The position numbers and the translations under genes are program-made. From Nitrosarchaeum sp. (GTDB lineage: Archaea > Thermoproteota > Nitrososphaeria > Nitrososphaerales > Nitrosopumilaceae), in assembly GCA_013140415.1 (NCBI GenBank), contig JABFSW010000087.1:1-21619 (forward strand): a DNA stretch of 21,619 bases, read 5' to 3'. Shown one piece after another: positions 7,100 to 20,707 of this stretch; positions within the stretch are counted from its first letter, which is position 1; the number at the start of each line of letters is the position of its first letter. Under the pieces are notes generated by a model. The model was not told the DNA's origin. It saw only the letters and a list, made by a program, of their open reading frames with translations, and did not search any database.

Positions 7100-7627
7100 T
7101 TGTCTCAAGAATTAGAAAGAGTCTATACTATCAATTTGGGTAAAGTTTTACTTTCCGTAGATACACATCGTGCCCCTAGAGCTATTAACATGATTAAAGA
7201 ATTTGCTCGTCATCATATGAAAACAGCAGATATCCGAATTGAGGAAGATCTTGCTCATCAAATTTGGTCAAAAGGAGTTAGAAGTCCTCCAAGAAAAATT
7301 AGAGTTAGAATGAGTAAAACTGATGAAGGATATGTTTTAGTTTCACCATATGCTGATGAAAAAGAATCTAAAGACACACCAGATAAAGAAGTAAAGAAAG
7401 GTAAATCATCTAAAGATTCAAAGAAAGAAACACCTGTCAAGGATGTAACAACAGATGCACCAATCAAAGAAGTAAAGAAAGAAACACTAGCTAAAGAAGT
7501 AAAGAAAGAAACACCAATCAAAGAAGTAAAGAAAGAAACACCAATCAAAGAAGTAAAGAAAGAAACACCATCTAAAGAAGTAAAGAAAGAAACACCATCT
7601 AAAGAAGTAAAGAAAAAATCTAAATAG
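7100..7627 (+). CDS. rpl31e: 50S ribosomal protein L31e with Lys/Glu-rich repeat tail
   Basis: Residues 1 to about 88 are a normal L31e core (ERVYTINLGKVLLSV, APRAINMIKEFARHH, KGVRSPPRKIRVRMSK), a large-subunit protein near the tunnel exit. The protein is 175 residues against the usual 85-95 for archaeal L31e. The extra half is low-complexity Lys/Glu/Thr/Pro, ending in five 9-residue repeats of the form KEVKKETPx plus a partial one. The TTG start follows the L39e stop with no gap; the coupling and the good N-terminus support it. Ribosomal core function is secure. The tail is likely disordered and solvent-exposed, and its role is unknown; binding rRNA, the membrane or nascent-chain factors at the exit site is speculation. 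Confidence 0.93.
   Translation: MSQELERVYTINLGKVLLSVDTHRAPRAINMIKEFARHHMKTADIRIEEDLAHQIWSKGVRSPPRKIRVRMSKTDEGYVLVSPYADEKESKDTPDKEVKKGKSSKDSKKETPVKDVTTDAPIKEVKKETLAKEVKKETPIKEVKKETPIKEVKKETPSKEVKKETPSKEVKKKSK
7466..7624 (+). repeat. 27-bp in-frame tandem repeat in L31e tail
   Basis: Five copies of a 27-bp unit start at 7466, 7493, 7520, 7547 and 7574, followed by a truncated copy from 7601. Each encodes KEVKKETPx (the first ends in LA instead of PI/PS). The copies are nearly identical at DNA level, which implies recent slippage expansion. Looser relatives (KEVKKGKSS, KDSKKETPV) lie just upstream, suggesting older decayed units. Confidence 0.95.
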
Positions 7628-17771: not shown

Positions 17772-18434
17772 TTACTCTTTTAGTAATTTCTGAATCATTG
17801 CTTCGACATTGCCTGATTGTCCAAAAGAGACATCCCTTAGGATTCCTTTTCTGTCTACCAATATCATAGATGGTGTTCCTTGCAGTGCAAATTTTTCAAA
17901 TGTTTCTGCAGAGTATTCTTTTGTTTTCATATAGTCTCTAACTCTCTGAATGATTTGCTTTCTATATTCTTCTGGTTGGGAATCAAATTCTGGGATTTGC
18001 CCATAAATGAATTGTAATATCTTATCCTCGCTTATTTTACCATCTGTTTTAGTTAGATTATCCATTGCAAGAGGAAATGGAATTTTATATGGTAGTTTGT
18101 TGCCATTTTGCAATTGTCCATACATTGATAGTGCATTTTTTGTTTCACCTACTACCTCGCCTGTTTCAACTAGCATCTTTAGATTATCCAAAGTATTTTT
18201 ATCATAATCCTCAAATGCTGTGGCGATTCCTATTACTCTAACTCCATCATCTTTGTATTTGTTGTAAATGCTAATTGCTTCAGGAAGTGCATGCATAAAA
18301 CAACCAGGACAATTCACCTGAAATACCTCTACTAAAACAATATGATCTTTTTCCTGATCAAAGTTTGTTGGGGCTCCTTGAACCCAATTAGACACTTCAA
18401 AATTTGGTGCTTTTTGTCCTATTATTGCACTCAT
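17772..18434 (-). CDS. Redoxin-family thiol-disulfide oxidoreductase / peroxiredoxin-like protein
   Basis: This 220-residue thioredoxin-fold protein has a CxxC active site C42-P-G-C45 following the strand IVLVEVFQVN, and the cis-proline loop GTPSMILVD (P188). The arrangement and the long insertion between about 80 and 180 fit the AhpC-TSA/Redoxin (TlpA-like) group. CxxC and cis-Pro point to disulfide exchange more than to peroxidase chemistry. No signal peptide is visible, so it should be cytoplasmic. ATG 18434 has a good TATA box about 27 bp upstream on its strand. It is divergent from the HEAT-repeat gene and may share its intergenic control region. The electron donor and target are unknown. 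Confidence 0.8.
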   Translation of the reverse strand: MSAIIGQKAPNFEVSNWVQGAPTNFDQEKDHIVLVEVFQVNCPGCFMHALPEAISIYNKYKDDGVRVIGIATAFEDYDKNTLDNLKMLVETGEVVGETKNALSMYGQLQNGNKLPYKIPFPLAMDNLTKTDGKISEDKILQFIYGQIPEFDSQPEEYRKQIIQRVRDYMKTKEYSAETFEKFALQGTPSMILVDRKGILRDVSFGQSGNVEAMIQKLLKE

Positions 18435-18511: not shown

Positions 18512-18534
18512 GATATAAAAAATCTGAAAACAAA

Positions 18535-19023
18535 ATGCAGGCAGTAACTCAAAGTAGATTAGATCTTTTTGCAGAAATGGAGGCAAAATATGAAAAACAA
18601 GACACTGCATATTTTGTAAATCTTTTAGCTCATCCGGATTATGTAGTGAGAACTCGTGCTACTTGCATTTTAGTTGATTTTGGAGGCGAAGACAAAGTTC
18701 CACATGTTGCTCAAGTTCTAAAAAATGATGTAAATGAACTTGTAAGACACGAAGCTGCGTTTTCACTAGGTCAGATGTGTCTTTCTATTTGTATACCTGC
18801 ACTTGCTGATGCAACGTTGCATGACCCTAGCATGTTTGTAAGACATGAGGCAGCTATTGCACTTGGTGTAATTGGCTCCAAAGAGGCAAAATCTATTTTA
18901 GAAAAAGCATTAAACGATCCTGATAGACCCGTAGTGGAATCAGCAGTGGTCGCATTATCTAATATTGAATTTATGGAAAAATTAAGCAAGAATGAAAAGT
19001 TTGCAAAACTAACAGGTGGATAA
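18535..19023 (+). CDS. HEAT-repeat protein with paired RHE motifs (half-DOHH-like)
   Basis: This 162-residue, all-helical protein is made of about four HEAT (PBS-lyase type) repeats. Repeats two and three each carry Arg-His-Glu at the same place: VRHEAAFSLGQ with H72-E73 and VRHEAAIALG with H104-E105, 32 residues apart. The fourth repeat follows as DPDRPVVESAVVALSNIE. The order HE-LGQ, HE-ALG, then DPxRxVxES resembles one half of deoxyhypusine hydroxylase, the eukaryotic diiron HEAT enzyme that finishes hypusine on eIF5A. Ordinary HEAT scaffolds do not need the paired HE. The full enzyme has four HE motifs in two halves; this protein has one pair and would have to dimerise. Function remains inference. 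The next gene starts just after its stop, with a Shine-Dalgarno-like AGGTGG inside its last codons. Confidence 0.75.
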   Translation: MQAVTQSRLDLFAEMEAKYEKQDTAYFVNLLAHPDYVVRTRATCILVDFGGEDKVPHVAQVLKNDVNELVRHEAAFSLGQMCLSICIPALADATLHDPSMFVRHEAAIALGVIGSKEAKSILEKALNDPDRPVVESAVVALSNIEFMEKLSKNEKFAKLTGG

Positions 19024-19024
19024 G

Positions 19025-20707
19025 ATGAATTTTACAGTTGGAATTATTGCTGCAGTTGGCGTTTTGGTTGCAATTAGTTTGGTTATGATTGCAATTGATC
19101 CTGGATATCTTTCAGGAATCCCAGTAAAACCAGTTGGTTGTACAAAAGAGTATGTTCCAATTTGTGGAGTTGATGGTGTGACTTATGGTAATATGTGTAC
19201 GCTAAATGCAGCCGGAACTGAACTTGATTATTCAGGTGAGTGTGTTAAAGCACTTGCAGATGGTTGGAGCCGAATGACATCTACACAACATCCTGGAATT
19301 GGACATGAATCTCATCAATCTGTAACTATTTTGCCATTATCTGATAAAGTTTATTCTGGCACATTACACTATTCTGCAACTGAGCCAATTCAACTAATTA
19401 CTTTGCATGGTCCACTAGCAGATGAAGAAGCAAAGGGGCAAGCAACTTGGACTCCAGATGGAATAACAAAATATGCATTAACATTTGTAAATCCGGATAA
19501 TGCACAGGGAGAATGGAAATTTGCTGGTAATGCTATATTAGTGCACACAAAGAAAACTGAACCATTCACTGTTGATTATATGGTGGATTATACTGAAAAA
19601 GAATTCTCTACACTTGTTCATACTGGTACACTACAATCAGAGCAAGACCCAGGAATTGGACATGAATCTCATCAACTAGTAATGATTCTTGCACCATCTG
19701 ATGATATCTATTCCGGAGTTATTTCTTATTCAGCAACAGAGCCAATTCAACTAATTACACTTACTGGTCCACTTGGTCCTACAGAGAGACCTGTAGCAGC
19801 TTGGACTCCAGATGGCCAAACACTTTATGCACTAAATTTGTTTGATCCTGCAAATGCAATGGGGTCATGGGAGTTTTCAGGAAATGCACTAGCAATTCAC
19901 ACCAGAAATACTACACAATTTACTGTTAGTTACTCTGTTAGTGCAACTGCTGAATCAAAAATGACTCCACCTGTATCTACAATGCCTATATCTCCAAGTA
20001 CTCATATGATTTCAATTCCACAAGGTGCAGGATCTCCTGGATGTGAAAATACAAACGAATGCTATCTTCCATCTTCTTTAGAGATTCAAGTTGGTGATAC
20101 TGTTTTGTGGAGTAATGATGATACTGCAGCCCATACTGTTTCTAGTGGAACTCCTGTAGATGGAATGGACGGTATTTTTGATTCTAGCTTGTTTATGTCA
20201 GGAACTACTTTTGAATTTACATTTGATGAATCAGGGGAATATCCATATTTTTGCATGGTTCATCCTTGGATGACTGGAGAAATTATTGTAAATGAAATTC
20301 ATGATATGAGTGTAAACCAAATTGCAGTTGGAGAGCCAAATCCATCTGGAATAGAACCTGAAGTTGTTGTTCCAGTTGAACCAGAAATTGAACCAACAGA
20401 AAAGCGCGCAGCACCAGTAGAGGTCACAATGGCACAAGGTGCATCTTCTCCAGGATGTGAAAATACCAATGAGTGTTATTTTCCTTATCAAACTGAAATT
20501 TATTCTGGAGAGCCAGTAGTTTGGATTAATACAGATTCTGCAGCTCACACAGTAACTAGTGGATTACCTGCACTTCATGATGGTCTTTTTGATTCAGGAA
20601 TGATAATGCCGGACCAGAAATGGGAGTATGTGTTTACTGATTCTGGAGAATATGATTATCATTGTATGCTGCATCCTTGGATGACTGGCAAAGTTATTGT
20701 AAATTAA
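19025..20707 (+). CDS. Secreted Kazal / tandem beta-repeat / double-cupredoxin protein
   Basis: The product is 560 residues from ATG 19025. An N-terminal membrane anchor (about 4-24) is followed by a four-cysteine Kazal-like module (C39, C47, C58, C73). Two 119-residue repeats beginning PGIGHESHQ (90 and 209) share YSATEPIQLITL. Two plastocyanin-like cupredoxins come last. Cupredoxin 1 has type 1 copper ligands H370, C410, H413, M416. Cupredoxin 2 has H508, C547, H550, M553 (both C-M-x-H-P-W-M). Each starts with a likely disulfide CENTNEC. An acidic Pro-rich linker joins them. Two intact blue-copper sites imply electron transfer outside the membrane; copper proteins take the place of cytochrome c in these archaea. 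Partner unknown. An in-frame GTG at 19016 overlaps the HEAT gene, but AGGTGG (19014-19019) lies 5 bp before ATG 19025, which is the better start. Confidence 0.88.
   Translation: MNFTVGIIAAVGVLVAISLVMIAIDPGYLSGIPVKPVGCTKEYVPICGVDGVTYGNMCTLNAAGTELDYSGECVKALADGWSRMTSTQHPGIGHESHQSVTILPLSDKVYSGTLHYSATEPIQLITLHGPLADEEAKGQATWTPDGITKYALTFVNPDNAQGEWKFAGNAILVHTKKTEPFTVDYMVDYTEKEFSTLVHTGTLQSEQDPGIGHESHQLVMILAPSDDIYSGVISYSATEPIQLITLTGPLGPTERPVAAWTPDGQTLYALNLFDPANAMGSWEFSGNALAIHTRNTTQFTVSYSVSATAESKMTPPVSTMPISPSTHMISIPQGAGSPGCENTNECYLPSSLEIQVGDTVLWSNDDTAAHTVSSGTPVDGMDGIFDSSLFMSGTTFEFTFDESGEYPYFCMVHPWMTGEIIVNEIHDMSVNQIAVGEPNPSGIEPEVVVPVEPEIEPTEKRAAPVEVTMAQGASSPGCENTNECYFPYQTEIYSGEPVVWINTDSAAHTVTSGLPALHDGLFDSGMIMPDQKWEYVFTDSGEYDYHCMLHPWMTGKVIVN
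19295..19949 (+). repeat. 357-bp intragenic tandem duplication
   Basis: The two beta-domain repeats of the cupredoxin protein are also visible in DNA. A 24-base identity starts at 19295 and again at 19652, and a further identity of about 20 bases (GAGCCAATTCAACTAATTAC) starts at 19382 and 19739. Both pairs are exactly 357 bp apart (119 codons). Sequence between the identities has diverged, so the duplication is not very recent. Confidence 0.85.

Follow-up and report, generated by a model that had tools for sequence, protein, structure and literature searches.

The window analysed here is a stretch of 21,619 nucleotides from the archaeon Nitrosarchaeum sp., and our subject is a gene within it that encodes a HEAT-repeat protein of 162 amino acids (18535..19023, + strand, ATG start; in pieces, ...ELVRHEAAFSLGQM...FVRHEAAIALGVIG...NDPDRPVVESAVVALSNIEFME...). 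The protein resembles one half of human deoxyhypusine hydroxylase (DOHH), and we will call its family the window family, or A. We propose, at roughly even odds (a probability of about 0.5), that it is a half-size, homodimeric, O2-dependent diiron deoxyhypusine hydroxylase. A possible TATA-like stretch, picked out by eye, lies just upstream of the ATG (18512..18522, +).

Two conserved His-Glu pairs in a HEAT-repeat protein

The translated open reading frame (ORF) contains the two VRHEAA motifs, the LGQ and ALG contexts, and the DPDRPVVES segment described in the sequence-only reading, with 32 residues from H72 to H104; positions 18748–18849 are exactly codons 72–105. In alignment with human DOHH, the first pair, H72-E73 (18748..18753, +), falls on H56-E57 and H207-E208; G79-Q80 (18769..18774, +) falls on G63-Q64 and G214-Q215; and the second pair, H104-E105 (18844..18849, +), falls on H89-E90 and H240-E241. 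According to excerpts of PMC9117371, the iron- and substrate-site residues in each half of DOHH are His, Glu, Gly (at +7), His, and Glu, and the window family matches all five positions of each human half.

In Pfam, the protein scores 79.8 bits for HEAT_2 and also exceeds the cut-offs of HEAT, HEAT_PBS, and HEAT_EZ, and no family besides these HEAT types was above its cut-off. By the curated cut-offs of HEAT_PBS and HEAT_2, it belongs with the generic PBS-lyase-type HEAT proteins (such as CpcE and NblB), and it shares the repeat unit and fold with these and with the alphaRep designs. AlphaFold2 predicts an all-helical solenoid for the monomer, with a mean predicted local distance difference test score of 93.1, so that both Pfam and the predicted fold agree with the HEAT-repeat solenoid of DOHH. 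No NCBIfam model reaches its cut-off. We rejected identification as NblB, CpcE, or CpcF, whose models give 32.3, 23, and 13.7 bits, far below the required 300, 330, and 220 bits, respectively.

An alignment of 61 rows contains 52 intact orthologues, the most distant about 40% identical, and all 52 keep both His-Glu pairs. (The nine excluded rows are L045 and L064, which are masked; L058, which is broken; L061, which is partial; L059, a paralogue of type B, which also has both pairs; and L002, L060, L062, and L063, which are other HEAT proteins.) Among 224 database homologues, which include proteins from Nitrosarchaeum (P0023, 94% identical) and Nitrosopumilus (P0042, 87%), 220 have the two pairs at a spacing of exactly 32, and all 220 of these have Gly-Gln at +7 and +8 from the first His. 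The four others are the full-length P0318 and the fragments P0336, P0338, and P0344. So the residues at issue are conserved among the orthologues; their loss was the outcome that the sequence-only reading had named as fatal to it.

The pattern is also beyond chance. Two pairs spaced by 31–34 residues arose in just 49 of 20,000 shuffles of the protein. We also compared 35 regions taken from 34 related genomes, three of them from the window's own family. There, such spacing was found in 35 of 35 orthologues versus 2 of 1,246 other six-frame ORFs of at least 100 amino acids; since most of these ORFs do not encode HEAT proteins, this comparison controls for chance and not for the repeat consensus. 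As to the consensus, the four non-family HEAT rows listed above, the only such rows aligned, lack the pairs, and so do the alphaRep alignments as printed, unlike the window protein. A count of loose HEAT motifs in the 35 regions is uninformative on this point because nearly all of the motifs found there (63 of 64 have His-Glu) resemble the family itself.

The closest folds to the predicted monomer are designed binding proteins, and HEAT repeats are mostly binding scaffolds. So we also considered that the protein might be a non-catalytic adaptor, with the His-Glu pairs being part of a conserved protein-binding surface. The Thr-Gly-Gly (TGG) at the extreme end of the chain (19012..19020, +) fits an adaptor as well, as it is nearly as conserved as the pairs (213 versus 220 of the 224 homologues). 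However, the exactly spaced pairs, with a DOHH-type Gly-Gln after the first pair, in 220 of 224 homologues, and the family's occurrence in lineages with haem-copper oxidase (see below), make an adaptor distinctly unlikely. In some deeper members, the chain ends in APRP rather than TGG. The tail that precedes TGG is predicted with low confidence, and perhaps it reaches into the partner chain.

Relation to DOHH and to half-length DOHH of Marine Group II

Sequence and profile searches both identified human DOHH (PDB 4d4z; EC 1.14.99.29) as the nearest non-designed protein of solved structure, which bears out the expected likeness. The two proteins have in common the HEAT solenoid, two His-Glu pairs per half, and the Gly-Gln and ALGxI that follow the first and the second pair, respectively; the window protein is 33% identical to the N-terminal half of human DOHH.

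The two also differ in several ways, some of which weigh against our proposal. Human DOHH has two halves and four His-Glu motifs per chain, while the window protein has one half and two motifs. The spacing between histidines in human DOHH is 33 (56 to 89 and 207 to 240), in line with the figure given in the sequence-only reading, but it is 32 in the window protein and in 220 of 224 homologues; in the alignments, the window protein has a one-residue insertion before H72. The window protein also has a longer N-terminal part and the TGG tail, and it lacks the VDPAP(P) segment that precedes the half. By this criterion, which is our own reading of the human and Marine Group II sequences, DPAP is present in 1 of 224 window-family proteins versus 117 of 120 homologues of the Marine Group II type. 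Finally, the window family lies outside the DOHH clade in a tree of 44 rows. The idea that the protein is half of a DOHH is upheld by the near-invariant pairs and by human DOHH being nearest, and not by the clade, the spacing, or the missing VDPAP. Because of these last three points and the single half per chain, we describe the family as DOHH-like and do not file it as DOHH.

A scan for relatives of DOHH turned up proteins of about 160 amino acids that are 42–50% identical to half of human DOHH (L115–L194, the best 80 of 442). By their titles, 78 of these best 80 are euryarchaeal and many are from Marine Group II; because just the best 80 of the 442 were kept, other lineages may be hidden. 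The gene is usually single-copy, and the protein has a His-Glu spacing of 33 and VDPAP (for example, L126:3920-4417). L175, a deltaproteobacterial record, carries the same half-length DOHH. Going by these sequences, clear half-length DOHH exists in Marine Group II archaea, which makes a homodimeric assembly credible. Like the window protein, these are chains of one half with two His-Glu pairs, and the two are 35% identical over 111 aligned columns. Unlike the window protein, they approach the human N-terminal half at 42–50% identity, have DPAP and the longer spacing, and group with human DOHH in the tree. A comparison of the profiles of the two families gave a probability of 99.5%, with His-Glu placed over His-Glu by means of two compensating one-residue gaps. 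Flanks of up to 4 kb around half-length DOHH contained neither aIF5A nor deoxyhypusine synthase (DHS) at any of these 80 loci.

The tree included 20 A rows, 9 B rows, 11 of the 80 half-length DOHH rows, the 2 human halves, and 2 other HEAT proteins (L062 and L063 were left out as too partial). Both human halves and the 11 half-length DOHH rows form one clade (support 98/99; branch length 2.08 changes per column). Because the branches are long and the alignment is short, it is uncertain how deep the split between the window family and DOHH goes. No single branch sets A apart (3 changes), since its rows are interspersed with long outgroup branches. It is possible that the half-length DOHH of Marine Group II derives from a eukaryotic gene by transfer and then splitting.

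The B paralogue (L059, L103–L110, and L112–L114) is found in the same taxonomic order. It too is a HEAT protein (open frames of about 165–235 amino acids), with His-Glu pairs at a spacing of 32 in 12 of the 13 examined, L111 being the exception. It differs from the window protein after the first pair, where Gly is present in 3 of 9 aligned rows and Gln in 0 of 9. B forms a separate, starred group in the tree and joins the DOHH clade at 83/84, which was flagged as long branches meeting; a constraint that holds A and B together was not rejected (p-AU 0.086). B was not seen in the near-complete A-bearing genomes G031, G037, G040, and G068 (listed as 99% complete), each of which shows a single match, so we rejected an A-B heterodimer as the sole functional form.

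These results also bear on whether the protein might be a half-size homodimeric diiron HEAT oxygenase that acts on another substrate, such as a protein side chain, or one of the lipids or small molecules found only in aerobic archaea. The family's place outside the DOHH clade, its spacing of 32, and its lack of VDPAP would fit this, as would a paralogue with His-Glu pairs in some of the same genomes and the usual gene neighbours (described below), which are not hypusine genes. On the other hand, the substrate-side positions of DOHH (the equivalents of E57 and G63) are kept, DHS or aIF5A adjoins the HEAT gene in two genomes, and we know of no family of HEAT diiron enzymes besides DOHH. We consider another substrate unlikely, though a serious alternative.

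Gene neighbours, the hypusine pathway, and aerobic lineages

The HEAT gene is flanked by a divergent gene for an AhpC/TSA- and Redoxin-like protein of 220 amino acids (17772..18434, −; Pfam) and by a gene for a protein with a Kazal domain and two cupredoxin stretches (19016..20707, +; ORF list, Pfam, and NCBIfam), with an ATG one base past the HEAT stop codon. At 33 loci from the window's own family (with flanks of 1.5 kb, some of them cut), the redoxin-like gene is beside the HEAT gene in 27 and the Kazal/cupredoxin gene in 29. These neighbours, and the pairs being of a metal-type His/Glu kind, raise the alternative of a mononuclear or structural metal site, for the handling of iron, zinc, or copper, with no oxygenase activity. 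But the pairs fall on the ligand positions of DOHH and half-length relatives of DOHH exist, and we regard such a site as the least probable of the explanations given here.

The window's own genome encodes an aIF5A with SKPGKHGAAKARI, in which the lysine has the SKPGKHG context, and two proteins of the deoxyhypusine-synthase (DS) family from adjacent genes (L032, contig C27), both with SWGK, which we take to be the active site of DHS. So the pathway to the substrate of DOHH, that is, DHS and an aIF5A with the hypusine-site lysine, is present. One of the two adjacent DS-family genes may encode a homospermidine synthase (compare SpeY, in an excerpt of PMC10407285).

A hypusine gene is near the HEAT gene in 4 of the 35 regions; the two cases of direct adjacency, G414 and G029, are both from lineages distant from the window's. 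In G414, the HEAT gene starts just past a divergent DHS-like gene, which is in turn adjoined by a DHS gene. In G029, the end of the HEAT gene is 286 bases from the end of a gene for aIF5A with the SKPGKHG motif. In G314 and G342, which are relatives of G414, a DHS gene is found some 5 kb from the HEAT gene. The other 31 regions have no hypusine gene near the HEAT gene, which counts against our proposal. Three of the four genomes share a family, contig ends truncate 10 of the 35 regions, and roughly 1.4 regions with a hypusine gene (within 10 kb on each side) and 0.1 direct neighbours would be expected. For these reasons, only the direct neighbours in G414 and G029, which we noticed after the fact, are suggestive of a link to hypusine.

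Across the window's class, 228 of 300 genomes have a match to the HEAT protein at E = 0.001 or better; after exclusion of nine that are weak, partial, or broken, 219 count as orthologues. Haem-copper oxidase subunit I (COX1) was above the cut-off in 234 of the 300. Both genes are present in 197 genomes, the HEAT gene alone in 22, the oxidase alone in 37, and neither in 44 (Fisher odds ratio of 10.6, uncorrected for relatedness). The 22 genomes with the HEAT gene alone are all in families f1, f3, or f4, whose other genomes have the oxidase, and the 37 with the oxidase alone include seven of the weak, partial, or broken matches. Across the phylum (398 genomes), strong matches outside the class were found in nine genomes from three further families, and a search with the HEAT protein of one of these, G414, found archaeon HR01 (100% identity) and proteins from Caldarchaeum. 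The oxidase is present in eight of these nine genomes (the ninth is listed as 81% complete), as well as in 12 of 12 siblings without the gene, hand-picked from weak matches. The HEAT gene goes with aerobic lineages, but the oxidase can occur without it. This distribution fits a step that requires O2 and yet is dispensable. DOHH is dispensable in yeast (PMC8153317, as excerpted).

Of two genomes from the same genus, listed as 97% and 96% complete, G108 has only a broken copy of the HEAT gene (L058) and G110 has no strong match, so the gene may be dispensable. Elsewhere in the window, an ORF at 7100–7627 (+) encodes a protein with a presumably ribosomal-L31e-like start and a long tail of KKETPxKEV repeats.

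A candidate for the second step of hypusine formation

Excerpts of five papers, from 2012 (PMC3306375), 2016 (PMC5178350), 2018 (PMC6105217), 2020 (PMC7773846), and 2021 (PMC8153317), state that no DOHH was known in archaea; several also note that hypusine itself is present in some archaea. The sequence-only reading was thus right, as far as these excerpts go, that archaeal hypusine hydroxylation is poorly explained. Among open-licence papers, we found none on hypusine in Thaumarchaeota or ammonia-oxidizing archaea; the available portions of this literature include nothing on Marine Group II and deoxyhypusine that treats DOHH, and no title or start of an abstract that announces an archaeal DOHH. 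The one paper listed for deoxyhypusine monooxygenase together with archaea concerns Snodgrassella. The assignment is already in use as a label, in that some members carry the automatic name “deoxyhypusine monooxygenase” from the Joint Genome Institute: among the matches listed, 19 of 120 window-family homologues, 4 of 104 from the search with the G414 protein, and 3 of 120 half-length DOHH homologues.

We propose that the HEAT gene encodes a half-size, DOHH-like subunit, two copies of which would pair face to face so that a diiron site is held between their four His-Glu pairs. By analogy with DOHH, H72, H104, and E105 of each half would be the iron ligands and E73 and G79 would face the substrate, and the diiron site would activate O2 for the hydroxylation of a single aliphatic C-H bond. 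We are less sure of the substrate, which may be the deoxyhypusine formed by DHS at the lysine in the SKPGKHG motif of aIF5A. That the protein is a metal-binding homodimer of some kind is, as a rough estimate, rather probable, and most of that probability goes to action on aIF5A. The HEAT protein would then carry out the missing second step of hypusine formation in ammonia oxidisers and certain other aerobic archaea.

More broadly and more tentatively, aerobic archaea might complete hypusine with half-size homodimeric diiron hydroxylases: a half of DOHH proper in Marine Group II, and the divergent window family in ammonia oxidisers and their aerobic relatives. Eukaryotic DOHH might then be such a homodimer, duplicated and fused. 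DOHH has been cited as an oxidase that was born from a HEAT protein that was not an enzyme (PMC9040561, in part). With a conserved half-size candidate, and with the half-length DOHH of Marine Group II as a precedent, the missing archaeal step becomes directly testable. The candidate also offers a concrete route by which a symmetric oxygenase of two halves may have arisen from a homodimer, or may later have been split.
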